From a virus, in IMG/VR virus record IMGVR_UViG_3300037587_000345, positions 1-43,120 of that record: a stretch of DNA of 43,120 nucleotides. One strand, 5' to 3'. The position numbers and the translations under genes were made by a program. Each line of letters opens with the position of its first letter. The first letter of the stretch is position 1. The notes beneath the pieces were generated by a model. The model made no database searches. It had not been told where the DNA came from and saw only the letters and a program-made list of their open reading frames with translations. Shown here in pieces: positions 1-30,467 of this stretch.

Positions 1-363
1 GCCCATCATAGTAGTTGGCATCTTGCCATCCCACAACAACTTGGCTTCAGCTTCTTTCAGGGAGATGAGAGAAGGAGTTACGGATGCGGCCAAAGAACGG
101 TTGCCTTCAGCCACTTTCTGAATACGGTAGAGTTCGGCATCAGCCAACTCACGTTTGGCAGAAGACTGGAAGGAGGCAGATTTAGCAGAAGCCTTGGCCA
201 CAGCCGTCTTCTCCTCAGCTTCGGCAGAAGCCATACCCACGGCCAAGAGGAATACAATGAAGGAGAGTGTGAGCAACACCCGCCAACACTCATATTTAAG
301 ATGAGTGTCCATCAGCCTCAAATCAAGCTCAAGCTCCTCACTCACATCTTTCAATGGCTTCAT
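1..363 (-). CDS. Membrane-anchored/secreted coiled-coil protein, 3' end outside the window
   Basis: The frame is open from an ATG at 363 to the window edge (121 codons visible), so the C-terminus is missing. After about 27 polar residues comes a hydrophobic stretch (VLLTLSFIVFLLAVGMASA), which could be a membrane anchor or a signal sequence ending in an ASA-type cleavage site. The rest is Ala/Glu/Lys-rich and probably coiled coil. The last visible residues (LKEAEAKLLWDGKMPTTMMG) resemble the C-terminal tail of SPFH/prohibitin-like proteins, but no SPFH core is seen. It follows the preceding gene by one base in the same operon. Function unknown; a spanin-like role is possible but unsupported. 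Confidence 0.75.
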   Translation of the reverse strand, partial: MKPLKDVSEELELDLRLMDTHLKYECWRVLLTLSFIVFLLAVGMASAEAEEKTAVAKASAKSASFQSSAKRELADAELYRIQKVAEGNRSLAASVTPSLISLKEAEAKLLWDGKMPTTMMG

Positions 364-364
364 G

Positions 365-559
365 TTAAACACTCCCAATAATAAGAAACCCCAAACTTAC
401 CACAACCATGGCGATGAGTGGCCCCCATTTAGTGAAGAACGGGCCTGAAGGATTTCTATCATAAACCTCCACATTGTGGTAATACTCCCACATCCACCTT
501 AGGACAGAGGCCACGCATATGAATACCAGCAGTGCTATTAGTGCCATAGTGAGGGTCAC
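365..559 (-). CDS. Small two-pass membrane protein (64 aa)
   Basis: The GTG start at 559 is preferred because GGAGG lies 7 bases upstream inside the previous gene and the GTG overlaps that gene's TGA as GTGA. An in-frame ATG at 547 lacks this. Two hydrophobic helices (residues about 3-20 and 47-63) flank a short polar loop containing WMWEYYHN. No known family is recognised. It is one of many tiny membrane proteins in this operon. Confidence 0.75.
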   Translation of the reverse strand: MTLTMALIALLVFICVASVLRWMWEYYHNVEVYDRNPSGPFFTKWGPLIAMVVVSLGFLIIGSV

Positions 560-792
560 TTGAAATCCTCCAACGTGGCGTCCCGCATGGGGCTTATAGA
601 CAACCCGTCCACTGTGTCCTGATTTAGCATGACAGTGGTGCCATTCAATGTAGTGAGGGCGAAGAAGCCACCAGCATGGCCCACAGGGCTTGAGGATACG
701 GGTACAATGAAACTCCTCTCCTCCCCATCAACCATGGCCACAAGCACATCAATCACACGCTGCCCACCAGTGTCTGTAATTCGCGCCGTCAT
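556..792 (-). CDS. Hypothetical protein (78 aa), soluble, beta-rich
   Basis: The frame extends upstream to 834, but the ATG at 792 is the likely start: it overlaps the upstream stop as ATGA and has AGGGTGG just before it. The product begins MTARITDTGG and has alternating polar and hydrophobic residues typical of a small beta protein. There is no signal peptide or membrane segment. Its GGAGG near the 3' end probably serves the next gene, so the pair is translationally coupled. Function not recognised. Confidence 0.72.
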   Translation of the reverse strand: MTARITDTGGQRVIDVLVAMVDGEERSFIVPVSSSPVGHAGGFFALTTLNGTTVMLNQDTVDGLSISPMRDATLEDFK

Positions 793-1175
793 AGTAGTTC
801 CACCCTTGGCAGATTTGGTGGGGCAATACGCCACTCTAAGATGTCTGATTCGTCGAACTCTTCATCCCAGATCCAAGTGCATCTATGGGCCGCAACGGCT
901 TTGCCACTCCAGTTTCCACTAGTGTTTCGGATTCGTATCTCAATAAGCGTATTCCGAGGGGTGACGGGGCAATCAAGGCCGTCGTGGGTGTGCCAATTAT
1001 AGAGAGCGGGAGTGTTGGGGGACATTTCACGCTCAACCCTTTCATTAATGCTGTTGAAGGTGTCCCTGATATTCTTCAGGACATTACCCACCTTCACCCC
1101 TTCCCCCAAATCGATGAGGGCTTTAGCCTGCTCACTCAACTCGTGAAGGTATTCTTCCAATTCCAACTTATCCAT
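789..1175 (-). CDS. Hypothetical protein (128 aa) with helical N-half and Trp-rich C-terminal phage module
   Basis: Start at ATG 1175 (MDKLELEEYLHELSEQAK). The longer frame to 1280 would overlap a small real gene. Residues 1-48 look helical. Residues about 55-125 form a module with W-x-x-H-D-G-x-x-C-P-V, a strand reading IEIRIR, then a Trp pair and DILEWRI. The same W...PV...(D/E)I...W...DI..(W/Y) pattern recurs in the protein at 2333-2743 and in many phage hypothetical proteins (from memory). The stop overlaps the next start as ATGA. Function unknown. Confidence 0.78.
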   Translation of the reverse strand: MDKLELEEYLHELSEQAKALIDLGEGVKVGNVLKNIRDTFNSINERVEREMSPNTPALYNWHTHDGLDCPVTPRNTLIEIRIRNTSGNWSGKAVAAHRCTWIWDEEFDESDILEWRIAPPNLPRVELL

Positions 1176-1329
1176 ACTTAACCTCAAGCTCTTTCTTAAG
1201 GGCGATGGCATCTTTCCTGTCCATGCCACCCTTGATGATTGTTGGGCGTGTGTTTGGCACGCCAGATGAGAACATAACATGGCACCGTTTAGGCCCGTAG
1301 TTACGTATGAATATTCTTCCAGCTATCAT
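1168..1329 (-). CDS. Small hypothetical protein (53 aa)
   Basis: This frame begins MIAGRIFIRNYGPKR and ends ELEVKYG. Its ATG at 1329 directly abuts the TAA of the upstream gene (TAAATG), and its stop overlaps the ATG of the downstream gene at 1175 by 8 bases. This fit on both sides is the main evidence. It explains why the longer reading of the 1175 gene should be rejected. The product is basic, with two positively charged patches; no family recognised. Confidence 0.65.
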   Translation of the reverse strand: MIAGRIFIRNYGPKRCHVMFSSGVPNTRPTIIKGGMDRKDAIALKKELEVKYG

Positions 1330-1539
1330 TTAGTCCACCAATCTATATTTAGTGACAGTGGTTACAGCCTCAGCGAAGATACGATTCGTTGCACGATAAG
1401 AGCTAACGGCTACGTTGGGTCTATCCCTGGACAACTCTTCCAGCCAATCCAAATACTCCTGATTAAGAGTGTGGGTTACAAACCCCCGGTTAGTTGCATA
1501 ATCACAATCATCGGGGTCGGTCCAATAAGATACTATCAT
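1330..1539 (-). CDS. Hypothetical protein (69 aa)
   Basis: The ATG at 1539 has AAGGAA about 8 bases upstream. The product starts MIVSYWTDPDDCDYATNRG and contains an amphipathic helix (EYLDWLEELSRD). It is acidic and has no membrane segment. It is the first gene after a 130-bp gap with two hairpins, so it may open a separate translational block. The C-terminus abuts the next ATG. Function not recognised. Confidence 0.75.
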   Translation of the reverse strand: MIVSYWTDPDDCDYATNRGFVTHTLNQEYLDWLEELSRDRPNVAVSSYRATNRIFAEAVTTVTKYRLVD

Positions 1540-1570
1540 AACAGATTCCTTACAATGATATGTGCCCTAG

Positions 1571-1646
1571 CAGGCTCTCACAGCCTGTCTAAGACACATA
1601 CTCTTGGAAGTGATGGCAATGTAAGGGGGGAGAAATGAGCCCCTTA
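1571..1646. other. Two hairpins in a 130-bp intergenic gap
   Basis: CAGGCT at 1571-1576 pairs with AGCCTG at 1582-1587 (5-base loop), and TAAGGGG at 1622-1628 pairs with CCCCTTA at 1640-1646 (11-base loop). Neither is followed by a clear T-run on either strand, so they are poor intrinsic terminators. They sit in the only long gap of the left operon and could be RNA-processing or attenuation structures (inference). Confidence 0.4.
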
Positions 1647-1669
1647 GAGAGGCTCACAGGAGCTTACAG

Positions 1670-2053
1670 CTACTCCTCCTTCTTATCCCCCAAATATTCA
1701 TCCATGGCCTTCTCAAGCACTTCCAAGCTCTTACCGCCAAGCTTTTGTGCCTCTTCACTCTTGACAAGCTCAGTGACACCGTAAGCGGCCAGCATTTTGT
1801 AGGCCGTGTCTTTTGAGGGGGTGAATGTGTTAATAAGAACAGACAGTACAACGAAGAATAAGAGGGGCTTCACAAACTTTCCCAAAGTGTTGTAAACCTC
1901 ATTGAATATCCCATTCTCAGCTTCTCCGGGGTTGTCCCCGTAATAAAGTGACATGCCTACAAAAGTGACAACATACAGTGAGACAAGCCACTGCCATTGA
2001 ATATACGTGCCCATGACCACATCAATCAAATAAATAATCCAAACAATTTCCAT
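1670..2053 (-). CDS. Membrane protein with cytoplasmic C-terminal helix (127 aa)
   Basis: The ATG at 2053 overlaps the stop of the upstream 36-aa gene (TAATG). Three hydrophobic stretches are visible: residues about 2-15, 20-38 and 65-82 (LLFFVVLSVLINTF). A charged C-terminal tail follows, rich in Glu and Lys (ends LGDKKEE). It lies directly after two other tiny membrane proteins, so these three may form one membrane complex. It could be a holin or superinfection protein, but nothing in the sequence decides this. Confidence 0.75.
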   Translation of the reverse strand: MEIVWIIYLIDVVMGTYIQWQWLVSLYVVTFVGMSLYYGDNPGEAENGIFNEVYNTLGKFVKPLLFFVVLSVLINTFTPSKDTAYKMLAAYGVTELVKSEEAQKLGGKSLEVLEKAMDEYLGDKKEE

Positions 2054-2163
2054 TACGCAATACTCCCAAGAATTCTACCAGAAACATACATTACATATGC
2101 CAAGAGGGGCAGGAACGCCCACCATGACATTCCGAAGGGGATGGTTTTGTCATTGCCCATCAT
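2053..2163 (-). CDS. 36-aa single-pass membrane peptide
   Basis: The ATG at 2163 overlaps the upstream TGA as ATGA and the TAA overlaps the downstream ATG as TAATG, so it fits exactly between two genes. The product begins MMGNDKTIPFG and carries one hydrophobic helix (WWAFLPLLAYVMYVSG). No family recognised. An alternative ATG lies one codon downstream. Confidence 0.6.
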   Translation of the reverse strand: MMGNDKTIPFGMSWWAFLPLLAYVMYVSGRILGSIA

Positions 2164-2339
2164 CCTAATGCAATCCCTACATGCACTAGTCCACCGAAGA
2201 CAAGGAAAAAGAGAAATCCCGCCATTGCAGGTACAAATGCCCTATCCCAAAAGTCGAATCCGTGTGTGGGCTCAAACCACTCTATACACCAGCACATACA
2301 GATGATGATGAATAGTATTTGAGGATGATTGATTAGCAT
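2160..2339 (-). CDS. 59-aa two-pass membrane protein
   Basis: The ATG at 2339 overlaps the end of the upstream gene (stop at 2333-2335) by 7 bases. There are two hydrophobic helices: residues about 8-18 (ILFIIICMCWC) and 38-58 (AMAGFLFFLVFGGLVHVGIALG), separated by a loop with WFEPTHGFDFWD. The stop is coupled to the 36-aa gene as ATGA. Holin-like size and topology, but no family match is claimed. Confidence 0.62.
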   Translation of the reverse strand: MLINHPQILFIIICMCWCIEWFEPTHGFDFWDRAFVPAMAGFLFFLVFGGLVHVGIALG

Positions 2340-2743
2340 TGGTCCACCACCTTGTAATAAAGGATGTCAAATCCCCCTGTGTGGTTCCAACGGATCAATT
2401 CAGAACATTGATTACTGTATTGATAGCCACCGTCAACCCAGATGTCCACAGCCTTGCCAGGCACAGGATTGTCCCCGCCACGCCACGCCGTCACAACGGG
2501 GCGAGGTGGGGGAATGTACACTTCCAGCCCTTCAACGTCGATGCAATAGCGTACACAGTTGATGAGGACGAAACGAAAATCTGCATCGTAAGGACAGAGT
2601 TCGCCAGCAATTGCACTCGTAATTACACCCCTCACCCCGTTGCACTCAAGAGCTGATAGTCGAGCCCCGTCAGCGAGGGAGGGGAAGTTTTCATAGGTGT
2701 TGGTGACCCTCACCTTCGCCCCAACCTCAAATTTCCTATCCAC
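2333..2743 (-). CDS. Hypothetical protein (136 aa), SH3/KOW-like N-half and Trp-rich phage module
   Basis: The start is taken as GTG 2743 because AGGGAGG lies 7 bases upstream and the longer frame would overlap the upstream gene heavily. Residues 3-60 include DRKFEVGAKVRVTNTYENFP and later GVRGVITSA, reminiscent of small SH3/KOW-like barrels. Residues about 85-134 carry the module W-R-G-G-x-x-P-V ... DIWVDGG ... RWNHTGGFDILYYK, shared with the protein at 789-1175. Function unknown. Confidence 0.68.
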   Translation of the reverse strand: MDRKFEVGAKVRVTNTYENFPSLADGARLSALECNGVRGVITSAIAGELCPYDADFRFVLINCVRYCIDVEGLEVYIPPPRPVVTAWRGGDNPVPGKAVDIWVDGGYQYSNQCSELIRWNHTGGFDILYYKVVDQC

Positions 2744-2930
2744 GTCGCATCCTCCCTTTAGCCATGCAATAACCGTTGTAAAAGGACACAAATCCCACCT
2801 TATCATTGTATGGGGCGTCATTGTGTGGGACGCCAAACCCGTACTTTAGCCGCTCACGAAGGAATACAAAGTCCTCCATAGCCATGTCAAATTTGTCCTC
2901 TAGGGACTTCGCTTCATCTTTTCCAATCAT
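2736..2930 (-). CDS. Hypothetical protein (64 aa)
   Basis: The ATG at 2930 overlaps the TGA of the hydrolase gene as ATGA. The product is MIGKDEAKSLEDKFDMAMED with helical propensity, ending in a basic tail (MAKGRMRRG). The last codons contain the GGGAGG that serves the next GTG start. It is directly downstream of, and coupled to, the PHB-depolymerase-like gene, so it might be a partner of that enzyme (inference only). Confidence 0.72.
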   Translation of the reverse strand: MIGKDEAKSLEDKFDMAMEDFVFLRERLKYGFGVPHNDAPYNDKVGFVSFYNGYCMAKGRMRRG

Positions 2931-3784
2931 GCCCTCTGCTCCAAATCAATGAATATGTTGGCCCACATGCTCATAGACTTACGAGCTGTGAACACGCCTA
3001 GGTGTCCGGCGTTACATGCATAGTTTCGCACAACGCCGTCACAGTAGTTGCGTATGGCTTCCGTTTGTTCTGCCGGGGTTATGTCGTCCTTCAGGCCAAC
3101 GGCTATATTCACAGGACACTTAATGTCTAGCGTGTCCTTGAACGTGTTCTCCAAGAAGACCTGCTCAATCGCCTCCAAATACCAGCTACCGGCCAAGTCC
3201 TGCACATTGTCGTACCAGTTGTAGAAGCGTTTCGTCTTCTCCGTTGGATTAACGAACTTGTCCCAATAGTGCATCGTCGGGTTGGCGGACTTCCACCCAA
3301 CGTTCATGAGCCAACCAGGCATGACACCGCCAAACATGGCCACCGCACGTTGATACTTGTACAGGGGAGTCTCAAAGGCCGGTTTAAGGATGGACTCACC
3401 CAGACTGGTGTCAATGGGTGCCCCAGCCACTGTAAGGCTGTCAACGTACTCAGGGGCCTCTGTAGCCACTCTTGCGAACAGCCACCCAGCTTGGCATAAA
3501 CCCACCAAATGGGAGGAATCACTTACACCCATAGCGAACAATGTCTGACTCACCTTATCGGCGATGGACACATTCTTCGTGGCTTGTGTGGCACCCTTCC
3601 ATTTAATATGGCTCACACCTCCTGTGGTGTGTTTCAGAGCTTGCTGAATGATTGATTGACCATCGGCATAATCAAGGATTGCATCGCCATGACCAGCATC
3701 AGGAGGGCCAATCAATACGCCGTCCTTCCCTTCACGCCACTCTATCACTGCAATGGACGCATCCTCATAAATAACTTTGCTCAT
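2927..3784 (-). CDS. Alpha/beta hydrolase resembling intracellular polyhydroxybutyrate depolymerase
   Basis: 285 aa, ATG at 3784 with AGGTGA upstream. The nucleophile motif is G-L-C-Q-A-G (Cys97), the cysteine version of the lipase box seen in PHA synthases and intracellular PHB depolymerases rather than the usual Ser. The C-terminal third reads WYDNVQDLAGSWYLEAIEQVF (about 190-210), then an Asp pair in G-L-K-D-D-I (233-234) and G-H-L-G-V-F (His261), matching the PHB depolymerase C-terminal pattern YL-x3-VF ... DDI ... GH-x-GVF. A Cys/Asp/His triad is therefore present. No signal peptide, so it should be cytoplasmic. Likely role: hydrolysis of stored PHB/PHA to monomers, feeding carbon or reducing power to the infection (inference). 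It could instead act on another ester. It is much shorter at the N-terminus than bacterial PhaZ (about 400 aa). Confidence 0.75.
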   Translation of the reverse strand: MSKVIYEDASIAVIEWREGKDGVLIGPPDAGHGDAILDYADGQSIIQQALKHTTGGVSHIKWKGATQATKNVSIADKVSQTLFAMGVSDSSHLVGLCQAGWLFARVATEAPEYVDSLTVAGAPIDTSLGESILKPAFETPLYKYQRAVAMFGGVMPGWLMNVGWKSANPTMHYWDKFVNPTEKTKRFYNWYDNVQDLAGSWYLEAIEQVFLENTFKDTLDIKCPVNIAVGLKDDITPAEQTEAIRNYCDGVVRNYACNAGHLGVFTARKSMSMWANIFIDLEQRA

Positions 3785-3795
3785 AACGTCACCTG

Positions 3796-3996
3796 TTAAT
3801 GTGTATGTTTCGTGGAGGGCTTAGGGGTGATTGAAGGAACAGACACCCCAGGGATAAGCTCACCCACCACCTCAAGCTCCATGAGCTGAGGGGCGGGCTC
3901 GCATTTAATTATGTAAGGCTCTTGAATGCCAGACAATGCCACAATCCCAACTACACCTGCAACTAACCCCAAAATTAGAGTTACAAAACCGTTCAC
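3796..3996 (-). CDS. Small membrane-anchored protein (66 aa), GTG start
   Basis: GTG at 3996 overlaps the upstream TGA (GTGTGA). The N-terminus (NGFVTLILGLVAGVVGIVAL) is one hydrophobic helix, followed by a Pro-rich tail ending PSTKHTH. The only Cys after the helix is not in a lipobox, so it is an anchored rather than lipid-modified protein. It ends 11 bases before the hydrolase gene. Spanin-like topology is conceivable, but no paired gene is recognised. Confidence 0.65.
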   Translation of the reverse strand: MNGFVTLILGLVAGVVGIVALSGIQEPYIIKCEPAPQLMELEVVGELIPGVSVPSITPKPSTKHTH

Positions 3997-4211
3997 ACTA
4001 TCACCCCATATTTAACAATATGTGGGAACGTGCCTACTTTGCTCCAGCGAATATTTTTAGCATACGTCACCATACCTTGCCCATTAGGTTCATTATCCCA
4101 CCAGACACGCACAAGCTTGTCCAAGGGGACAGGACACACCGTGTCAGGTGTGGCGACGAAGCTATGCACAAGCGTGCCAGTGCGACGTTGAGGTCTGCGA
4201 AAAAGCGTCAT
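3993..4211 (-). CDS. Hypothetical protein (72 aa)
   Basis: The ATG at 4211 is preceded by AGGGGAG at optimal distance, so the frame extension to 4244 is rejected. The product begins MTLFRRPQRRTG and contains VRVWWDNEPNGQG and a C-terminal hydrophobic end (YGVIV). It is basic and soluble. The central VPLDKLVRVWWD pattern looks like a small beta domain. Function not recognised. Confidence 0.7.
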   Translation of the reverse strand: MTLFRRPQRRTGTLVHSFVATPDTVCPVPLDKLVRVWWDNEPNGQGMVTYAKNIRWSKVGTFPHIVKYGVIV

Positions 4212-4221
4212 AGTAGCTCCC

Positions 4222-4440
4222 CTAGTCCTTGAATACAGCATCAAAGGAGGAGACTATTGCTGCACACCCCAATAACGCTGGGAAGAGAAATAATAAGGCA
4301 AGGGCAATATCTCCTCTTATGGCATTACCCACCACCCCGACGAATGAAAAGAACATCATCATTATAAGAAGGACAAGCAACGATATGTCAATTCGCCATA
4401 CAATGCCGAGGAATTTAGGGCGCAAGTTTATTTTAGGCAT
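4222..4440 (-). CDS. Two-pass membrane protein (72 aa)
   Basis: The ATG at 4440 has AGGAAA about 6 bases upstream. After a basic N-terminus (MPKINLRPKFLG) come two long hydrophobic helices, residues about 17-37 (DISLLVLLIMMMFFSFVGVV) and 45-66, then FDAVFKD. The positive-inside rule predicts N-terminus in the cytoplasm. No family recognised. A candidate promoter lies inside this gene (4361-4391). Confidence 0.75.
   Translation of the reverse strand: MPKINLRPKFLGIVWRIDISLLVLLIMMMFFSFVGVVGNAIRGDIALALLFLFPALLGCAAIVSSFDAVFKD
4361..4391 (-). promoter_or_regulatory. Possible internal sigma-70 promoter (minus strand)
   Basis: On the minus strand, TTGACA (4391-4386) and TATAAT (4366-4361) are both exact hexamers, but the 19-bp spacer is too long for a strong promoter; a shifted TTATAA gives 18 bp. 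It lies inside the membrane-protein gene and would transcribe the hydrolase and the genes below it. It may be a chance match within AT-rich hydrophobic codons. Confidence 0.25.
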
Positions 4441-4452
4441 AACTATTTCCTA

Positions 4453-4518
4453 TTAGAGTCTATTAATTGCCCAAAATATTACAGGCAAGCTAATGAATGT
4501 TACGATTACAATTTCCAT
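4453..4518 (-). CDS. 21-aa single-pass membrane micropeptide
   Basis: ATG at 4518 has a textbook AAAGGAG six to seven bases upstream. The product MEIVIVTFISLPVIFWAINR plus Leu is almost one continuous hydrophobic helix with a basic end. It sits 12 bases before the next gene. A strong ribosome binding site on such a short frame argues for real translation. Topology resembles other phage or bacterial micropeptides that modulate membrane partners; the specific role is unknown. Confidence 0.55.
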   Translation of the reverse strand: MEIVIVTFISLPVIFWAINRL

Positions 4519-4533
4519 CCTATTCTCCTTTCA

Positions 4534-4569
4534 ATACAAAAGCCCACTCGCTAGAATAGGCTTTTGTAT
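4534..4569. terminator. 11-bp hairpin, terminator-like on both strands
   Basis: ATACAAAAGCC (4534-4544) pairs perfectly with GGCTTTTGTAT (4559-4569) around a 14-base loop. On the minus strand the right arm carries a TTTT run, as in a weak bidirectional intrinsic terminator. It separates the 216-aa gene from the micropeptide gene and ends just before the latter's ribosome binding site, so it could also act as a translational switch. The rest of 4519-4674 shows no gene. Confidence 0.45.
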
Positions 4570-4674
4570 GCACTCAGGGGCGTCGGCTTCCCAGCCTTGT
4601 AGGCCCCCTGTACGGGATATGGGTTTAACTTCGCATAATTATATCCTCAATATTGTGTGCCGGAATGGAGGGAA

Positions 4675-5325
4675 TTAAGCAACGTCGGCTTGAGCTTCTT
4701 CAAGGGCGCGAGCCACATCACCAGTGCCAGCTTCGGCCTTTTCAGCTTCTTCTGTCTTTTCAACGCCGTCAGCAATGCCAAGGTTGAGGGCAACCTGCGT
4801 AGACAAAGACTTGCGCAACAGGTCGATTGCAGCAATGGCAGCCTGTAAATCCTCTGTAGTACGCTCACAATTCTCGCTTTCGAAAATGTTTGCAGCGTTT
4901 GTAATGGCACGGGAAACAGTGGGTGCTGCCTTGTCTTTTCCAGGCTTCTTATCACGTCCCAACCAGCATTTAAGAGCTTCACCTTCACCGACACGAAGGG
5001 CTTCCCAATGCTGTTCAGCAGCTACGCGCTTTTTAGCCAGCTTCTTTGCTTTGTTCTTGCTCACTTTACCGTGGTTTTCGTCGTCCAACTCAGCTTTAAG
5101 CGTTATGGCTGTAAGCTCTTGAACGACGGCGCGGAAAGCCTTATGGATGTTGCGATTTACATTTGGCAACACACTATCGAGCTGTACTACCAACGATGTC
5201 TCGCCATGCTTCTGAGCATGAGCGACAGTTTCGATAGTGAGGCGTGAAGCCGTAGACCAAAGCTTGTCACCTGTTTGAGCGAAGGAGTTAATTGATTTGA
5301 TTATTTGTGCGGTAGATCTGGCCAT
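4675..5325 (-). CDS. Hypothetical protein (216 aa), first gene of the left operon
   Basis: Start at ATG 5325 (AGGTGA upstream); a GTG three codons earlier is less well placed. Residues 1-75 look helical, residues about 85-130 are strongly basic (SKNKAKKLAKKRVAAEQHWE) and the C-terminal 35 residues are Glu/Ala-rich and acidic (EKTEEAEKAEAGTGD). This basic-then-acidic layout is typical of nucleic-acid-binding early phage proteins, but no domain is recognised. It is the first gene after the long control region and is separated from the rest of the operon by a hairpin, so it may be expressed at a different level. Confidence 0.82.
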   Translation of the reverse strand: MARSTAQIIKSINSFAQTGDKLWSTASRLTIETVAHAQKHGETSLVVQLDSVLPNVNRNIHKAFRAVVQELTAITLKAELDDENHGKVSKNKAKKLAKKRVAAEQHWEALRVGEGEALKCWLGRDKKPGKDKAAPTVSRAITNAANIFESENCERTTEDLQAAIAAIDLLRKSLSTQVALNLGIADGVEKTEEAEKAEAGTGDVARALEEAQADVA

Positions 5326-5371
5326 GATATTCACCTGTTATTTAATGTTGTTGTGTAGAGCTTATTCCAAA

Positions 5372-8618: not shown

Positions 8619-8884
8619 GCAGTAAGAAAACTTTACATAAAATGTTTTATTACGACGATGAATATGAGTATTCTGCACAATTGTGTGGATATGCTTTTGT
8701 GTTCCGGGTGATTGACTTCCCTAATTCCTCTGTGTCTTTCAAAAGTACAGAGTGGCAACACATGACTAGTGGTTTGGTAGAGGATTGCCTGAGGGGTATT
8801 ATATGTGACAACCTCACTAGAGCTGGTGTTGACACCACAGAGCACTATCATGTTAAATATGGGCAGTGTCGGGATGTTGTATGA
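8615..8884 (+). CDS. Hypothetical protein (89 aa)
   Basis: ATG at 8615 overlaps the previous stop (ATGAG). The product has MFYYDDEYEYSAQLCGYAFV and SVSFKSTEWQHMTSGLVEDC, an aromatic, acidic small protein. The stop overlaps the sigma-like gene's ATG as ATGA. Function unknown; the coupling suggests co-production with the downstream regulator. Confidence 0.73.
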   Translation: MSSKKTLHKMFYYDDEYEYSAQLCGYAFVFRVIDFPNSSVSFKSTEWQHMTSGLVEDCLRGIICDNLTRAGVDTTEHYHVKYGQCRDVV

Positions 8885-9363
8885 ATGAAACAAAGCGCTA
8901 CCAAATTATTCGCTCCCAAGTGTTGAAGCGGCTAGGCTATCCTCCCCTCAATCGCCAAGTACAGCGTTATGGGGAGATGACTCCCGAGGAGATTGTCAAC
9001 GAAGTGGCGATTCCTGTCCTTAAGGCTTCTAAGGATGAATGGGACTATGGCCTTATCCGCCACGTAACCAACCTGCGCCTAATTGATTTATACAGGGTGA
9101 GACAAGCCTACTCTGCTGTTTCATTCTCGCTAATGGAGGAAGATGGAGATGGCTATAACGAAGACCATAAGGACGAATACCGAGACCTACTTTCTTCTAC
9201 ATCTTCCCTCACAATGGCTCAGAGAGAAATACTGCTTCTGTTATGCGAGGGTCACGGGCACGAAGACATCGGAACATATTTGTCTATTACACCCAAAGCC
9301 TCCCGAAAACGCTTAGAGCGGCTAAGAGTCACACTGAAGAAGGAAATGGAGATTAGCCAATAA
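8881..9363 (+). CDS. Sigma-70-family-like (ECF-type) transcription factor
   Basis: 160 aa from ATG 8881 (ATGA overlap). Residues 33-78 resemble sigma region 2: PEEIVNEV ... LIRHVTNLRLIDLYRVRQA, compare the ECF pattern with an acidic DLVQ-like helix and N-x-x-x-D-x-x-R. Residues 110-155 resemble region 4: LTMAQREILLLLCEGHGHED, then IGTYLSITPKASRKRLERLR, a helix-turn-helix with the usual L-T-x-x-Q-R-E-I start. A 20-25 residue acidic linker joins them. Both regions are short, so it may be a degenerate sigma or a region-4-type activator. Its place directly before the terminase genes suits a role in virion-gene transcription (inference). Confidence 0.68.
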   Translation: MNETKRYQIIRSQVLKRLGYPPLNRQVQRYGEMTPEEIVNEVAIPVLKASKDEWDYGLIRHVTNLRLIDLYRVRQAYSAVSFSLMEEDGDGYNEDHKDEYRDLLSSTSSLTMAQREILLLLCEGHGHEDIGTYLSITPKASRKRLERLRVTLKKEMEISQ

Positions 9364-19656: not shown

Positions 19657-21750
19657 ATGAATAACCTACTACTTCTCGGTGGACGAGATGATGTGGTGCC
19701 TCCCGAGTCTGTGGATCTTGATGGCACCAATGATTTCTTCAGTCGGGCAAGTGATCTGACAGGGAACGCTGATGGTAAAACATTCACATTTAGTGCCTGG
19801 TTTTATAATTCAGGTACAGGTCTGCAACCCATTTACGCAGCGAATCCATCAGACAGCAATACCGGGTTTGGTATTTTTGTATCAAGTGATGTTCTGTTTA
19901 TCCGTGGGCATAATACAAGCGATACCGAAATATTAAATTTACAGGGTATTGATATACCGCTCAAAACTTTTGTCCACATGCTTGTATCTGTTGACCTTAC
20001 TGATACGGGCAAACGTCATATCTATATTAATGACGCCCAGAAAACGCCCACAGTTGTCACTTACACAGATGACACTATAAATTTTACCAATACAACTCAC
20101 TCAGTTGGCGAGTTGGTTGCTGTAACCAGGGACGGTCGTTTAGCCCAAGTATTTCTAGATTATACATTCCGCGACCTAACGATAGCAGCCAACCGTCGTT
20201 TATTCACAACCATAGATAGTGAGCGTGGACTTATCCCCGCTGCTGATCAAGCATCACTATCCCCCATACTCTATCTGGCAATGGACGATCCCACTACAGC
20301 CTTTGTCAACTTAGGTACAGGTGGTGATTTCACATTGAATGGAACTATTGCACGAAGCGGAAGAGGGCCTAATCAGTATAATAGTTCTGCCAGTGATCTT
20401 GACGGCAGTGCTGATTTCCTGACTCGCGGCGCTGGATTAACAGGAGCAACCGATACTAAGTTGTTAACATGTGCGTTTAGTCTCAAAAGTGATGCCGCTG
20501 GTATAGACCATATATACTCAACAGCTAATACTAGGATTGAAGTTACTTTTACGGCTACTAGAACTGTCAGGTTTGTGGGCAAGAATTCCGCGGGTACAAC
20601 GATTCTTGATGTGTCTGGACCAGCTATCCCACTTGATTCTGTAAGAACTGTATCAGCCTCTTTCGATCTTGCGAATGCAGCGAATAGATTTATTTTCTAT
20701 GGCAGTGTCTCTCAATCTCTCACTGTTACTACATACACTGATGATACAATAGATTTTACAGATACTGACCATAGCGTAGGAGCTACAACAGCGGGGGCTA
20801 CAAAATTCAATGGTGATTTAAGTGATTTTTACTTAGGCAATGAATTCATAGATTTGGCTAGTGGCAACCCATTCTTTAATTCCGTTACAGGTAAGCCAAG
20901 GTATTTAGGGGAGTCCGGTGAACTTCCTACAGGGTCCTCACCACTCATTTATCTCCCCTTCTGTGCCGATGATGCAGGTAATAACCTGGGCACAGGTGGT
21001 GACTTCACAGTCACTAGTGGGCCTTTTTTAGGTGCTCGTGGACCTAGTGAGTTTTGGGCAAGATCCGCAGAATTTGACGGCTCGACTGGTTCTCTAAGTA
21101 AAGCTACATCACTGGACAATGCAGCAGATGGTAAAGCGTTTGCAATGGCTTTCGGAATCAATAACGATACGCTGACGGGAACTGATCGGGTGTTCACTAT
21201 TGGCACATCAGGTGATGTTATACGATTCTCTGTCTATACCTCTGGCACTACACTGACTATCGACGGTTTTAATTCAGGTGGTACTCAGATATTGAGTGTT
21301 ACTGTAGCAACAGCATTCACCACCACTACATGGTCAACCTGTCTAATCTGCGTTGACCTGGCGAACGCCAGTAACCGAGAAATTATCATTGATAACGTCA
21401 TTACCACACCAACGTGGACGACTTATACTGATGACCTAATAGACTTCTCAGAAACCAAGTCGGCAATAGGTGCATCAACCGCAGGCACTGATTTCACAGA
21501 TGGTGAACTAGGTTTTCTGTGGTTTAATGACGCTTATATTGATTTTACCAGCGAAGCAAACAGATTGTTGTTTGTTGACGCTTTTAATTTACCTGTAGAT
21601 CAGGGCGATAAAGGTTTGGATAAGGCTGGAGTACAGCCAGTGGTTTACATGAAGTTTGAAGACTCATCCAATCTAGGGCTTAACTCAGGTACTGGTGGCA
21701 ATTTCACAGTAAACGGTACAATTGTCGCGGGCAGCGACGTTAAAGGATAA
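19657..21750 (+). CDS. Triple LamG/concanavalin-like adhesin (697 aa)
   Basis: ATG follows the fibre stop without a gap. Three homologous units of about 225 residues begin near 18 (SVDLDGTNDFFSRASDLTG), 244 (SDLDGSADFLTRGAGLTG) and 469 (AEFDGSTGSLSKATSLDN). Each contains a YTDD(T/L)I(N/D)F motif, and the units end near GTGG(D/N)FT. This is the beta-sandwich lectin pattern of LamG-like domains used for glycan binding. Probable receptor-binding protein. Codons look more AT-rich than the neighbouring structural genes, which may indicate acquired host-range material. Confidence 0.82.
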   Translation: MNNLLLLGGRDDVVPPESVDLDGTNDFFSRASDLTGNADGKTFTFSAWFYNSGTGLQPIYAANPSDSNTGFGIFVSSDVLFIRGHNTSDTEILNLQGIDIPLKTFVHMLVSVDLTDTGKRHIYINDAQKTPTVVTYTDDTINFTNTTHSVGELVAVTRDGRLAQVFLDYTFRDLTIAANRRLFTTIDSERGLIPAADQASLSPILYLAMDDPTTAFVNLGTGGDFTLNGTIARSGRGPNQYNSSASDLDGSADFLTRGAGLTGATDTKLLTCAFSLKSDAAGIDHIYSTANTRIEVTFTATRTVRFVGKNSAGTTILDVSGPAIPLDSVRTVSASFDLANAANRFIFYGSVSQSLTVTTYTDDTIDFTDTDHSVGATTAGATKFNGDLSDFYLGNEFIDLASGNPFFNSVTGKPRYLGESGELPTGSSPLIYLPFCADDAGNNLGTGGDFTVTSGPFLGARGPSEFWARSAEFDGSTGSLSKATSLDNAADGKAFAMAFGINNDTLTGTDRVFTIGTSGDVIRFSVYTSGTTLTIDGFNSGGTQILSVTVATAFTTTTWSTCLICVDLANASNREIIIDNVITTPTWTTYTDDLIDFSETKSAIGASTAGTDFTDGELGFLWFNDAYIDFTSEANRLLFVDAFNLPVDQGDKGLDKAGVQPVVYMKFEDSSNLGLNSGTGGNFTVNGTIVAGSDVKG

Positions 21751-25103: not shown

Positions 25104-25552
25104 TTGAATCAACATTAACTAACGCCCCCATCCCAGGTCAAGGACTCACACAAGATCCAGCCTCCAAGTTGGCTATTGAATCTCCTACAGAGGATACGGA
25201 AATTAATGCCACTGTAGGTAAGATATTTGACGATCTTACGTCCAAAGATAAGATAGGGGATATGGTGAAGCTCCTTAAGGATGGAGAGATATTTATGGAC
25301 CGCGTTGCTTCTGCCTATATTGAGCAGGGAGTTGTGTCCGGGAAGTGGAACACTGACATGGCCCATCTATTGGTGGAGCCTGTATTGTTCGTTATTATGT
25401 GGATTGCCTCTCAAGTGGGGGCACCTATGAAATTTAGAGACGCCCAACACTTTGATTCTTCCGGCATGGATGTGCTTGAGAGTGCAGCTATACAGGAAGT
25501 AGAAGAAGAAGTGATTAGTCTATTAGCTCCGGAGGCAAGCAATGGCCAGTAA
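25100..25552 (+). CDS. Virion-associated protein (150 aa)
   Basis: Coupled by ATGA to the previous gene. Disordered N-terminus (PIPGQGLTQDPASKLAIESP), a hydrophobic helix in the middle (LLVEPVLFVIMWIASQVG) and an acidic C-terminal helix (AIQEVEEEVISLLAPEA). One potential membrane-inserting segment suits an ejection role (inference). Its last codons carry GGAGG for the next gene, which overlaps by 11 bases. Confidence 0.68.
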   Translation: MIESTLTNAPIPGQGLTQDPASKLAIESPTEDTEINATVGKIFDDLTSKDKIGDMVKLLKDGEIFMDRVASAYIEQGVVSGKWNTDMAHLLVEPVLFVIMWIASQVGAPMKFRDAQHFDSSGMDVLESAAIQEVEEEVISLLAPEASNGQ

Positions 25553-27320
25553 TTTCCTTTCAGGACTCGTAGGTGGTGTTGGATTTGCCCTAGAGCTGGA
25601 ATATAAAGAAGCCGAGAAGAAACGTAAGCGAGCTTGGGAAAGCCTCCAGAAGGATAAAGACCTGGAGGATGGCATCTTCACTCATAAAGCTAAGGCAACG
25701 ATAGAGAGTAATATCAAGCGAAGGGAGAATGCGGCTAAGTTTAGGGCCAACCCCCAGCAGTATACACAGGAATTTTACGCACAATTGGCTAAAACCCAAG
25801 GACTGACGGGATCAGACTCCACCAAGTTTGTAAATAAATCTCAGTCTTCCCTTACGCAGGAAGATATAGACAGGATGTTGGAGTCAATCAAGGTGGTTGA
25901 CATCGATGTTAAGAAGCGTACATTTGGAGCACCTCGCCCTGTAGCAGGCCCTGGTGTAACTCTACCTGAGGGTGGATTTGTTTCTCCAGTGATTGAGGAG
26001 AAAGGCCCAGAGATTGTACAACTACAGGAGAGGATTCGTACACTGAGGGAGGGGCCACAAACTCCCGAGATTCTGCAAGAGATTAAAGACCTCCAAGCAG
26101 AGGTCTCTCCGGCAGCCCCAGCGGCAGGAACCCTCGCTGGAAGGCAAAACTTGATTGCAGAAAAGCAGGCTCAGATGAGTGGTGCTGATCCTGTGACGAA
26201 GGCCCGCCTACAGAAGGAAATTGCTCAGTTAGAAGGACAGATTAAGTTCGATCAAACACGTGCAGATCCGAAGTTGAGTGACCTGTCTGAGAAGCTTGCC
26301 ATTAGCAATAAGTTCACTCCGTGGTTGACAGACCCCAGCAAGTCAGAAGCAGAAAAGACACAGGCCCTCAATGCACTTAAGCTTGCTGGCATAGCGAATG
26401 ACTTGGATAAGTCCTTCCAGAGTCAGACACTCATTAACAAGGAGACAGGTGAAGAGATAAGTGGTAGCTATGACAGTGACACTGGCCAACTCTCCACTAT
26501 TGATGAGAGCGGTAAGGTAGAGACACTGGACAGCTCAAAGTGGCTTGAGATTAAGCATGTAACACCTAAGAGCCCAGCTTTGGCCCGTATACATGGTGCC
26601 TCTATTGAGCGCACACGTGATGTGAACCTCAGTGCTGGTAGGATGATGAATAGCCTCACTAAGGCTTACAAAGCCCTAAACATCGCCCCAGGCGCTCCCG
26701 CAACAGTGGCCCCAGCCATTATTAATGCATTCACCAACGCTAAGGCCGAAGTAAGTGCATTCGCAGGCATAGTGAGGGGTGGTGTTCCTAAGGCAGAAGC
26801 TGACAAGATAAACTCCTTTGTACAGGATGACAGTTTTTGGGAGGGCATAGCTGGCGATAGTGAAGTGGGCAAACTTCTTGTTGCCAACGCCCAGTATAAA
26901 GATGCTATGCTCATCATGACTTATGCCAAGCTGGGCATGAATGGCCAATCCGGCAAGGATGTCAGTGCGCGTGAGTACAAGGATCAGCTCACCGCATTGG
27001 CGGGCAACTCTTCAGATCCTAAGGTTGTTCAAGCTAAGCTTATTAGCCTAATCGACGACTCCCAAAGTTCTGTAGATAACTTCTACGAGCGTGGTATTCC
27101 TCAGGAAGGAAAAGAGGCTGTGAATGCTTCGTTCCCTAAGGCGTCTTTGGATAAGTTGTTCAAGGACACTAGAGCCGATCTGACAGGAGATAGATTTGCA
27201 CTAAATCCTAATATACCTAAAGCTGTCAACAAATATAATAGCATGTCCCGTGAAGAGAAGCAGGTTGCTTGGGCCAGGTGGCCTAAAGGAATGAGAAAGT
27301 ATATTCAACAACCCAACTAG
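25542..27320 (+). CDS. Internal virion protein (592 aa)
   Basis: ATG overlaps the previous gene; GGAGG lies 6 bases upstream. Mostly helical and charged (EYKEAEKKRKRAWESLQKDK; LQERIRTLREGPQTPEILQE), with long coiled-coil stretches at about 15-80 and 160-240 and an Ala/Pro-rich linker. No lytic or protease motif is visible. Size, composition and position correspond to T7 gp15-like internal core proteins. Confidence 0.72.
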   Translation: MASNFLSGLVGGVGFALELEYKEAEKKRKRAWESLQKDKDLEDGIFTHKAKATIESNIKRRENAAKFRANPQQYTQEFYAQLAKTQGLTGSDSTKFVNKSQSSLTQEDIDRMLESIKVVDIDVKKRTFGAPRPVAGPGVTLPEGGFVSPVIEEKGPEIVQLQERIRTLREGPQTPEILQEIKDLQAEVSPAAPAAGTLAGRQNLIAEKQAQMSGADPVTKARLQKEIAQLEGQIKFDQTRADPKLSDLSEKLAISNKFTPWLTDPSKSEAEKTQALNALKLAGIANDLDKSFQSQTLINKETGEEISGSYDSDTGQLSTIDESGKVETLDSSKWLEIKHVTPKSPALARIHGASIERTRDVNLSAGRMMNSLTKAYKALNIAPGAPATVAPAIINAFTNAKAEVSAFAGIVRGGVPKAEADKINSFVQDDSFWEGIAGDSEVGKLLVANAQYKDAMLIMTYAKLGMNGQSGKDVSAREYKDQLTALAGNSSDPKVVQAKLISLIDDSQSSVDNFYERGIPQEGKEAVNASFPKASLDKLFKDTRADLTGDRFALNPNIPKAVNKYNSMSREEKQVAWARWPKGMRKYIQQPN

Positions 27321-27329
27321 GAGTATGTA

Positions 27330-30300
27330 ATGGCTGAACAAACAATGGATCAATTCCTTAGTCAATTTGATGAGGAAGATGACAAACCTCAGGACATGGA
27401 ATCTTTCCTCGGTCAGTTTGATGAGGCTCCTCCTGTCCAGCCTGGGGAGGAGGGGGTAGATGTTTCTCCCCTCCCTACGGAGCCCGCTCAGCCTCCTGTA
27501 GACTTGGAAGCCCTGGGAATAGAGCAACTGCCAGGAGAGGCAGCCCCTTCTCTCCCCGTTACAGGGCCTTCTCCTACGGAGGTTGCCTTCAGGGAGAAGG
27601 GTGTTCTGACAGACTTTCCCTCGGAGTTTTCTGAAAGAGCTTATGTAGAACTCACTAAAAGCCTGGACTCTGAGCGGCAGGTAACTGTACTCAATGAGGC
27701 ATTCGAAGGCAAGGTGAGACGCCAGGACGGAGAGCTTCAGCGCTTAGTGGTGTTGGAAGACGGAAGCAAGCGTTGGGCTCTGGTTAATGAAATGGGACTC
27801 ACTGCTGATGACATTACATCCTACATAGTTGGTGAGGGGCTTCCTTTCCTGATGAGTGTTGGTGGCGGTGGCGCTGCGGGTGCAGCAACCATAGCCTCAG
27901 GCCCTGGAGCGATAGTGGCGGGTGTAGTGGGTGATGCAGCAGGCACCTATTTCGGACATGTATCCAATCTACTGTTAATGAAGTATGGTAAGGGGATAAG
28001 TGACGAGGCTCTTTCAGATGAGGAGATACTTACAGGGGGTCCAGCTAAGGAAGCTCTGTTGGCCCTGGTCGGTACTGTGGGTGTGCAATCGCTTATGGGA
28101 AGCGTTAAGGCCGTTTACAAGATGTCCACAGGTAAGAACATCTCCGACGGTGTTGTAACTAGACTTAGAGAGGCCCTTACAGAACAACAGGAGGTTCAAG
28201 CTGGATTGCTTAAGGGTGTTAGGGAGGCCACTGGGGAGGACATCACCCTGACAGTGGGTGAGGCATCTGGAGATGACTTAGCCCTATCTTTGGAGCATTC
28301 CTTCAGACAGAATGTACTAGCCCAAAAGGACTTAACAAAGTTTGATGCAGATCCAATGAATGAGGTTAGTGGTGCAGAAGCCATAGTGAGATCTGTGGAG
28401 GGTTGGGTTAAGCGTAATTCTGACGAAGCCGCAGGTAAAACTGTAGACGCAGAGAACATCATACGCACACAGGTGAGGGCAGAGCACAAAGCCATTCAAG
28501 ATGGCATCACTCTACAAAGACAGAACACTGAAGCCACCCTAAACCAGTCTATGGAGAAGCTTCGTGCTAAAGCCCCAGGAACGTTTGATTTCCAAGATGC
28601 CCTTAGGGGCTCAATACAAACCGTAAGGGATGGTGTGGACAACACCTTCGCTGGCCGATATGACGAACTGGAGAAAACCTACGGCAATCTGAAAGGCCCC
28701 AATACACACATTGCCGCATTTAAGGAAGACTTGGCAGAACGTGAATCTCTGGTTCTTGAGAAGGCACTGACGTCCAACTGGAAGAAGTTCATGTCTAAGG
28801 AACTTCCTGAAGGAGATGTCACAGCCATTGTGGATGAATTTGGACGTCCTCTTCGTACATTCTCTACGGATGAGGGCACAGATCTTATTCGTCGTGCAAT
28901 GACCCCAGGGGCCACACTCACCTATCAGGAAGTGAACACCACCCTGAAGCTCGTCAGAGCCACCATACGGGACATTCGTGAGCATGGTAAGAGTGCTGAT
29001 AGCCCTAACGTAGCCACGCTTAAGCAGCTCCAGGCGGCCTATGCTCGTCAACGTAATGAACTGGCAGCCCTGGCCCCTGATGGTGGTCAACAACTCCGCA
29101 ACGTAGATGCAGCCTACAAGATTGCTAAGTCTGAAGTGGACAACGCCGAAGTGAATAGAATTATGTCCAAGGTGGGAGATAATTTTGAGTTGGGTGGTGT
29201 GGAGCTAGCCAACTACATCTTCACCCCGAAGGTTAGTGCCCTAGTGGCTGATGGGGATGATGTCATCGCTAGGCTTATCCCTATTATGGATGGTGAGCCA
29301 GGACTACGTAGAGTGTTTAATAAGTCTGTAAAGGGTGTTTACGCTCGTCGTGTTAAGAATCAAGCCGACCATAACAAGTTTGTGCAGGAGTTTGAGGGGG
29401 CATTCAAGGACATCTACGGAGGAGGCATTCCTAAAAACTTCAAAGACGCGGACAAGCTGTTCAAGGAAATTGCTAAAAGAGATGAGGAGATGGATGCCGC
29501 AGTTAAGGCCATGGGCCTAGATCCTCTAAACCCAGCCTCTGTAAAAAATCACATTCGTAACATTGTGGAGAATGGGGATCAAGCAGCTAAGGCCAGATTG
29601 GATTCCTTTATGGAGGACAACCCTGAATTGCAACAGATGTATGTTTCCTCCTACATGAACACCCTCCTCCTGGGGGGCCAGAGAGGCTTCCAGGGAGTTG
29701 TTAAATCTACCCCTGACGGTAACAGGTTTTTAGACATAAGTGCTCTTAGGAAGGTTGTAGGGGCCACCAAGGGAGAGGAAGGCGTAATTGCAATTGATGC
29801 TGTGGCCGATAAGTATTTATCAGATGCACAAAGGTTGGCCCTTTCTCAGATATTGGAGGTGGGGGAACTTACACAACGTGGCATAAGTGTTGGGGATACA
29901 GTTAAATATCAGAAGTCTAAGTGGGCTCATGCTATTCAACTCTATCTAGGACCACTGACACGTGGAACTAGATTCTCTAACACCGCTGATGTCTACTTAC
30001 AGAACTCAGCAGGAAGGGCCTTGATTGAAGCCATGGCCAATCCTAAGAAGCTGAAGGCTCTCCTAGATAAATACCCTAGCCCTAATGCCTGGAGGAATGA
30101 GGCAGAGAGGTATATGTATAATCTGGGTGCTCGTGAGGGTGCAAGTGCATACAATGATGATGATCAGTTCATGACTCCAGCATCAATAGAAGATCCTTTA
30201 TTGCAGGAGGCTGTGAGAGCCGCTCAGAAGCCCCCTGAGGAGGAGCAATTTGAACTAAGGGAAACACCCCTCTCCGAGGAGGAACCCATTGGTACGCCAC

Positions 30301-30467
30301 GAGAGAAGGCCGTAGAGACTATACGAGGGGGCGGGTCTACCCCCACTACGATTAACCTCCCTGATGAGCAGGCTGTCACCGAGGGTGGTCCTGGGGATGC
30401 TTTGTCAGCAACCACTGACTTAAATGCCCTCTTCCAAGAGGCTAGACGGAGGAAGATGCTTGCCTAG
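27330..30467 (+). CDS. Large internal virion protein (1045 aa), ejection complex
   Basis: AGGAG before the ATG. The N-terminus carries a duplicated short motif, F-L-x-Q-F-D-E at 9-15 and 26-32, then a Pro/Glu-rich linker. Residues about 165-200 are Gly/Ala-rich and hydrophobic (GLPFLMSVGGGGAAGAATIA), possibly membrane-inserting. The rest is long-helical (residues 280-900). The C-terminal 120 residues are acidic and disordered. No lytic transglycosylase signature is seen, unlike T7 gp16. Largest gene of the window and the last of the ejection set. Confidence 0.8.
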   Translation: MAEQTMDQFLSQFDEEDDKPQDMESFLGQFDEAPPVQPGEEGVDVSPLPTEPAQPPVDLEALGIEQLPGEAAPSLPVTGPSPTEVAFREKGVLTDFPSEFSERAYVELTKSLDSERQVTVLNEAFEGKVRRQDGELQRLVVLEDGSKRWALVNEMGLTADDITSYIVGEGLPFLMSVGGGGAAGAATIASGPGAIVAGVVGDAAGTYFGHVSNLLLMKYGKGISDEALSDEEILTGGPAKEALLALVGTVGVQSLMGSVKAVYKMSTGKNISDGVVTRLREALTEQQEVQAGLLKGVREATGEDITLTVGEASGDDLALSLEHSFRQNVLAQKDLTKFDADPMNEVSGAEAIVRSVEGWVKRNSDEAAGKTVDAENIIRTQVRAEHKAIQDGITLQRQNTEATLNQSMEKLRAKAPGTFDFQDALRGSIQTVRDGVDNTFAGRYDELEKTYGNLKGPNTHIAAFKEDLAERESLVLEKALTSNWKKFMSKELPEGDVTAIVDEFGRPLRTFSTDEGTDLIRRAMTPGATLTYQEVNTTLKLVRATIRDIREHGKSADSPNVATLKQLQAAYARQRNELAALAPDGGQQLRNVDAAYKIAKSEVDNAEVNRIMSKVGDNFELGGVELANYIFTPKVSALVADGDDVIARLIPIMDGEPGLRRVFNKSVKGVYARRVKNQADHNKFVQEFEGAFKDIYGGGIPKNFKDADKLFKEIAKRDEEMDAAVKAMGLDPLNPASVKNHIRNIVENGDQAAKARLDSFMEDNPELQQMYVSSYMNTLLLGGQRGFQGVVKSTPDGNRFLDISALRKVVGATKGEEGVIAIDAVADKYLSDAQRLALSQILEVGELTQRGISVGDTVKYQKSKWAHAIQLYLGPLTRGTRFSNTADVYLQNSAGRALIEAMANPKKLKALLDKYPSPNAWRNEAERYMYNLGAREGASAYNDDDQFMTPASIEDPLLQEAVRAAQKPPEEEQFELRETPLSEEEPIGTPREKAVETIRGGGSTPTTINLPDEQAVTEGGPGDALSATTDLNALFQEARRRKMLA

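Follow-up and report, generated by a model that had tools for sequence, protein, structure and literature searches.

A phage-borne cysteine hydrolase related to PHA synthases and PHB depolymerases, with a possible role in the use of host poly-3-hydroxybutyrate

The 43,120-base stretch of viral DNA analyzed here (the window), which is an entire IMG/VR virus record, carries on its minus strand, at 2927-3784, a gene for a 285-residue α/β-hydrolase with a cysteine nucleophile, reduced to the catalytic core of the superfamily that comprises the PHA synthases (PhaC) and the intracellular PHB depolymerases (PhaZ). The protein belongs to this superfamily by its Pfam match, its sequence relatives in the PDB, and its fold matches in the PDB. 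Within the superfamily, its sequence places it in an unnamed third subfamily between PhaC, PhaZ, and DUF3141, of which, to our knowledge, no member has been characterized. As a tentative explanation of the observations as a whole, we favor a horizontally spread phage enzyme that would act on poly-3-hydroxybutyrate (PHB) or on 3-hydroxybutyryl (3HB) thioesters, most likely mobilizing PHB.

That the gene is a phage gene, as an earlier note on this DNA had stated, is borne out by the virus record in which it lies. Matches to PHROGs in the window include a terminase, a portal/adaptor, a major head (capsid) protein, tail proteins, and an amidase-like protein, as well as RNR, DNA ligase, a metallophosphoesterase, HNH, and PhoH; the 43,120-base record has no end repeats. 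The closest isolates are Aeromonas phages 1233 and MQM1, Vibrio phage CHOED, and Pseudoalteromonas phage Slicky01, with identities of ~40% for the terminase and 45–50% for the capsid protein. The genomes of these isolates (63–67 kb) have a common layout, in which the structural genes run in one direction and the ligase and nucleotide genes in the opposite one, continuing with DNA polymerase, primase, RNA polymerase, and small early genes up to a divergent start beside the terminase. Since DNA polymerase, primase, and RNA polymerase, which isolates of the group have, are not seen among the window genes scanned, the window represents only a part of the genome of a CHOED/MQM1-like phage. A 165-aa protein encoded immediately upstream of the terminase genes (8866-9363, plus strand) weakly matches a PHROG of RNA polymerase sigma factors (E 3.8e-6). 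The structural region also encodes, on the plus strand, proteins of 697, 592, and 1045 aa (19657-21750, 25542-27320, and 27330-30467) with no PHROG match, which are candidates for diverged tail or ejection proteins. The close TerL relatives L002-L007 are fragments in which the hydrolase gene is absent.

The hydrolase ORF comprises 285 codons with an ATG start, and the plus strand across 2927-3784 is interrupted by stops. The earlier note had given the gene without its strand; its reality is supported well beyond chance by PHB_depo_C and by hundreds of homologues. A Shine-Dalgarno-like AACAGGTGA (3789-3797, minus strand) lies 5′ of the hydrolase ATG, and a string search located the identical 9-mer (at 5339, minus strand) 5′ of the ATG at 5325 of a 219-aa gene that heads the operon; a third copy lies inside the 219-aa gene at 5275, and there is none elsewhere in the window. 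At the other end of the gene, the ATG of a 64-aa ORF (2736-2930, minus strand) overlaps the hydrolase stop (ATGA), so that translation of the two is likely to be coupled. Both are part of a leftward operon of small genes (1-5334, minus strand) that encodes several short membrane proteins, in agreement with the previous description of a membrane-protein-rich operon. By analogy with the layout of Aeromonas phage MQM1 and Vibrio phage CHOED, these genes may constitute the promoter-proximal end of a leftward early transcription unit. No homologues of the left-arm proteins were found in isolate phages of the MQM1/CHOED group, an IMG/VR search with the 219-aa gene gave no match, no homologue of the 64-aa ORF was found in the other viral hydrolase loci, and when the left arm was scanned for promoters and terminators, the scores were no better than those of shuffles. 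The hydrolase itself shows no strongly hydrophobic segment, and hence no evident signal peptide or transmembrane helix.

The earlier description of the product as a PHB-depolymerase-like cysteine hydrolase stands at the level of the superfamily, whereas identity with PhaZ does not. In the HMM search that the note had proposed, residues 180-269 matched Pfam PHB_depo_C (PF06850) with 33.6 bits, above the gathering cut-off of 27 bits. In contrast, the protein scored 35.6 bits against the PhaZ model TIGR01849 (cut-off 300.75) and 31.7 bits against the class III PhaC model TIGR01836 (cut-off 365.3), shortfalls of about 270–330 bits, and a Pfam scan gave no match to PhaC_N (PF07167). Against DUF3141 (PF11339) it reached 24.8 bits, just below the gathering cut-off of 29.7, and it stops after the core. 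Compared with one PhaZ, that of Neorhizobium, it has GLCQAG in place of the AVCQP elbow and lacks the N-terminal region of ~100 aa, being, as already noted, shorter than PhaZ (by ~120 residues). It does have the Cys-Asp-His triad and the G-x-C-x-G-G elbow of PhaC, with one elbow position differing. Its placement in an unnamed subfamily of ~370-aa bacterial proteins is instead backed by alignment over the full length of the core, invariant motifs, tree placement, and BLAST (E ~1e-50, 33–38% identity). Given the failed PhaZ and PhaC models and the synthase-like elbow, the name PHB depolymerase is too specific. On plasmids, the top-ranking relative is annotated as a "PHB de-polymerase domain protein" and comes from Burkholderia vietnamiensis (360 aa, 34.5%, E 3e-37); DUF3141 and phaZ genes rank next.

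When the PDB was searched with the family profile, PHA synthases were the only strong relatives (E 1e-20 to 1e-12), with 9KNJ at the top (E 1.4e-20) and the next match outside PhaC at 1.3e-5; a second profile search gave PHA synthases at E 2e-22 to 4e-14. Matches to caspase-2 obtained with a single-sequence query were judged to be due to chance and were gone with the profile query. The AlphaFold model, based on a 66-row alignment, confidently predicts an α/β-hydrolase fold (pLDDT 94.4, pTM 0.92). A best structural match to an unrelated esterase family, which the earlier note had named as evidence against its reading, was not what emerged: PHA synthases of Aeromonas caviae, Chromobacterium, and Cupriavidus necator occupy all of the first 14 places among the fold matches in the PDB (E 1.7e-13 to 1.4e-11, TMq 0.68–0.82), and monoacylglycerol lipases and esterases rank behind them. 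The viral fold library BFVD holds no comparably close structure, the matches listed being generic esterases with TMq of at most 0.64.

The putative catalytic residues pointed out earlier are present in the translation and can now be assigned more closely. Cys97, in the nucleophile elbow GLCQAG (residues 95-100; 3485-3502, minus strand), is invariant in the 66-row alignment and in all eight viral proteins, and in a profile alignment it falls on the Cys of C. necator PhaC (GFCVGG); the seven other viral proteins have GLCQGG or GFCQGG as their elbow. His261 in GHLGVF (codon at 3002-3004, minus strand), the predicted triad base, is likewise invariant in the alignments, including the eight viral proteins, and aligns on the His of PhaC SGHI. 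Asp233 and Asp234, which had been put forward jointly in a KDDI context (codons at 3083-3088, minus strand), are both present but differ in conservation: Asp233 is invariant in the eight viral homologues and aligns on the Asp of PhaC EDHI, whereas two of the eight carry K or N at position 234. The alignments make Asp233 the likely triad acid. The hydrolase and PHA synthase also have in common the WYDNVQDLAGSWY motif (residues 190-202; 3179-3217, minus strand), of which W190, Y191, G199, and W201 are kept in 8/8 viral proteins, and W190-Y191...G199-x-W201-Y202 aligns on W...LPGPWYCWYL of C. necator PhaC. The YL-x3-VF pattern of the earlier note, YLEAIEQVF (residues 202-210), turns out to be part of this conserved WY...[DN]-L-[AP]-G-x-W-Y motif.

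With profile scans, the gene was found in eight further IMG/VR records, seven through the 66-row alignment and one more through the viral alignment. As L099 and L100 are the same phage, at least seven other phages carry it, a lower bound, since the scan depends on exact matches to short motifs and can overlook relatives. Identity to the window protein (blastp) is 43% for L098, 41% for L102, 40% for the identical proteins of L099 and L100, 39% for L101, 37% for L108, and ~27% for L103 and L104. The records, the shortest a fragment of 6.9 kb and the longest 238 kb, contain further phage genes: portal beside the L098 gene, terminase and a structural protein in L108, terminase and baseplate wedge in the record of L101, primase/helicase and DNA polymerase beside the L103 gene, terminase in the 238 kb record of L104, RNA ligase in L100, and helicase in L102. 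Judged by translated comparison of stretches of up to ~20 kb per record, as opposed to whole records, the phages have essentially nothing but the hydrolase gene in common, the exceptions being a DNA ligase shared by L101 and the window and two weak short matches. In two phages from metagenome 3300037587 with little else in common, the gene lies beside DNA methyltransferase genes (L098:3816-4913 and L108:5873-8461).

In a maximum-likelihood tree that included one PhaZ and five PhaC sequences, and from which L108 was left out, a single clade (100/99) unites the window protein with those of L098, L100, L101, and L102, a second holds those of L103 and L104, and both viral clades join deltaproteobacterial-type members (97/93). 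The window and L098 proteins join as two long branches, and the root is unsure because PhaC, PhaZ, and DUF3141 sit on very long branches. The N-terminal region of the bacterial proteins is missing from every viral form, leaving a core of 285–310 aa. In every viral pair pN is well below pS, and synonymous sites are saturated, so that dN/dS is not quantitative; together with the triad that is invariant in all eight proteins, the low pN nevertheless makes the gene look maintained. Such a pattern would be expected of a phage enzyme that is functional and has spread horizontally. Single-sequence scans of IMG/VR and of GTDB genome contigs gave no match, nor did an IMG/VR scan with a 3-row alignment, and the INPHARED phages contain no true relative of the hydrolase. 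The only clear INPHARED matches, the phbC records of Acinetobacter phage MD-2021a (CAKLQF020000002, CAKLQF020000010, CAKLQH020000004, and CAKLQH020000018, with contigs of up to 305 kb), resemble contigs of bacterial origin and were not considered further; deposited under a phage name, they would confound surveys of phage-borne phaC.

When genomes, one per species, were scanned for the conserved motifs, about 400 bacterial relatives emerged, of which the best 80, 33–38% identical to the phage protein, were kept. Nearly all are ~370 aa long, and they come mostly from Pseudomonadota, with some from Desulfobacterota/Myxococcota-type genomes. They match the class III PhaC, PhaZ, DUF3141, and PHB_depo_C models alike, scoring better against class III PhaC (best 2.6e-43) than against PhaZ (best 6.1e-34). 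Within 6 kb of the ~80 hydrolase genes lie a phosphotransacylase gene in 23 loci, partly fused to an enoyl-CoA hydratase (PRK08190), and an acetate/propionate-type kinase gene in 24, both of which frequently adjoin the hydrolase gene directly; by our own estimate, at one or two such genes per several thousand, chance would account for <1% of loci. Other neighbors are FabI, class I PhaC (5 loci), and FabG/PhaB-like SDRs, and in one genome (G222) the hydrolase gene lies 404 bp upstream of a phaC. PhaC_N occurs in 22 of 26 genomes with the subfamily, the remaining four being deltaproteobacterial-type genomes. Among 190 alphaproteobacterial genomes, PhaC is present in all six that have the subfamily as against 113 overall, which is suggestive rather than strong (0.59^6 ~0.04). 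In Bradyrhizobium, a pta-ackA operon (blr3456-blr3459) is controlled by the PHB regulator PhaR (PMC10888616). A coherent, if unproven, reading of the bacterial cluster would lead from PHB to ATP: PHB would be converted to 3HB-CoA by this hydrolase family and to crotonyl-CoA by the hydratase, and crotonyl-CoA in turn to butyryl-CoA (by the FabI-like enzyme) or acetyl-CoA, and then to acyl-phosphate and ATP. A plasma-membrane-type proton P-ATPase (TIGR01647) adjoins the hydrolase gene in 26 of the ~80 loci (e.g., L043:3226-5742 and L054:3207-5723), a recurrent association that PHB metabolism alone does not explain.

We propose that the phage protein may be an intracellular Cys-Asp-His enzyme that keeps just the catalytic core of a PHA synthase or PHB depolymerase and would be expressed from the leftward, probably early, operon. 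A Cys nucleophile and a Cys acyl-enzyme are characteristic of PhaC and intracellular PhaZ. Activated by His261 and Asp233, Cys97 would attack the (thio)ester of host PHB, or of its 3HB-thioester intermediates, to form a 3-hydroxybutyryl-enzyme, from which water or CoA would release 3-hydroxybutyrate or 3HB-CoA; the net effect would be to mobilize stored carbon and reducing power for phage replication. There is precedent in the intracellular PhaZ1 of Ralstonia eutropha, which releases 3HB-CoA from PHB by thiolysis (PMC3430594). The match to PHB_depo_C, the PHA synthases as sole strong PDB relatives and top 14 folds, the linkage of the bacterial kin to PHA genes, and the invariant viral triad all support a PHB-related role, and we regard PHB as a reasonably probable substrate. 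DUF3141 proteins, which have the fold and motifs in common with the hydrolase and no known substrate, weigh against it. Depolymerization, as opposed to synthesis, chain transfer, or inhibition, is a more tentative proposal, against which count the synthase-like elbow, the PhaC-leaning bacterial scores, and the absence of a phasin-type granule-binding protein from the eight virus records searched. Slightly more tentative again is the fullest version, in which a phage lineage of its own of the PhaC/PhaZ-like core would move between unrelated phages and be used early on host PHB granules for carbon and reducing power.

The distance of the subfamily from both PhaC and PhaZ, the FabI and acyl-phosphate genes of general acyl metabolism near the bacterial kin, and the reduction of the phage form to the core would also suit a generic acyl-thioester or ester hydrolase of PhaC/PhaZ descent that has lost PHB activity and acts on acyl-CoA, acyl-ACP, or membrane lipids. 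We consider this unlikely, though worth serious attention, as phaC occurs together with the bacterial kin and in some cases next to them, the phage protein preserves the PhaC-type WY-LPG-WY motif, and the nearest solved structures are all PHA synthases. Alternatively, a small PHA synthase-like enzyme might polymerize or transfer 3HB units, making short oligo-PHB or shortening PHB by chain transfer. A G-x-C-x-G-G elbow in seven of the eight viral and nearly all bacterial members, bacterial members that match the class III PhaC profile better than that of PhaZ, and reports of phages with phaC itself (PMC12013262) speak for such an activity; but PhaC_N is absent, no PhaE- or PhaR-type partner is seen among the window genes scanned, and making polymer during lytic growth would waste carbon, which leaves it distinctly improbable.

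Rather more doubtful still is an inhibitor of host PHB synthesis that would pair or compete with host PhaC and so keep acetyl-CoA from storage. The compact core resembles the PhaC catalytic domain, the gene position is probably early, and for Bradyrhizobium, PhaC1/PhaC2 heterodimers of lower activity have been suggested (PMC10888616), yet a pure inhibitor would have no need of a triad whose Cys, Asp, and His persist in 8/8 viral proteins. The role in lysis that the earlier note had offered as an alternative finds no support here. An esterase acting on the host envelope within a lysis cassette would be in keeping with the several small membrane proteins among the neighboring ORFs, but not with a protein devoid of strongly hydrophobic segments, whose best fold matches are intracellular polymer enzymes and whose counterparts in other phages lie near helicase, primase/polymerase, DNA methyltransferase, or RNA ligase genes instead of lysis genes; we give it very little credence.

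If the enzyme of our preferred explanation, a phage hydrolase mobilizing PHB, is indeed active on this polymer, phages would possess a dedicated enzyme for drawing on or shutting off a carbon reserve that is among the most common in bacteria. This would matter for burst size and for what becomes of stored carbon in waters, soils, and treatment plants rich in PHB. The core of 285–310 aa would then offer a minimal system for probing what distinguishes PHA synthases from depolymerases, and a first way into the function of a bacterial subfamily that has no name in model libraries.

Among known proteins, the closest counterparts are the ~370-aa bacterial hydrolases, such as Bcep1808_7272 and those of Bosea (L014) and Azotobacter vinelandii (L089), which are annotated as "PHB de-polymerase domain protein" or "alpha/beta fold hydrolase" and are 33–38% identical to the phage protein over the whole core. 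They have the same triad context (VGLCQGGW...DDIT...GHIGLF) and WYLQAIEQ motif, whereas the phage protein lacks ~60–80 N-terminal residues and two internal stretches of ~10–15 aa each, including the AKG-F-GLGR-L hairpin; the bacterial genes are often found in acyl-phosphate/PHA clusters, the phage gene among the small genes of a phage operon. With PhaC of class I (PDB 5HZ2, 5T6O, 5XAV, and 9KNJ) and class III (TIGR01836), the phage hydrolase has the fold, the triad, the G-x-C-x-[GA]-G elbow, and the LPG-WY motif in common, but it is only 14–19% identical in fold alignments, lacks PhaC_N, has a smaller cap, and falls far under the family cut-offs. It resembles PhaZ in its Cys nucleophile and in a C-terminal half that passes PHB_depo_C, and differs from it in elbow and length as described above. 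DUF3141 proteins of Rhizobium and Azospirillum are alike in the GNCQAGW elbow and the DDITPPQQ and GHLGIF motifs, but they are 735–772 aa long with a long C-terminal region, 21–25% identical, and stand apart in the tree.

In phages of PHA-producing mixed cultures, phaC has been reported as an auxiliary gene, identified as a PHA synthase by automatic annotation and in one copy very similar to a host phaC (PMC12013262). The unnamed subfamily was not found in the literature searched. Like the reported phaC, the gene described here is a phage-borne gene of putative PHA metabolism, but it belongs by its sequence to another subfamily, in a diverged, virus-specific clade that recurs in unrelated phages. 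To the phage-borne phaC already known, our analysis thus adds a virus-specific lineage, delineated by sequence comparison, that is common to unrelated phages.
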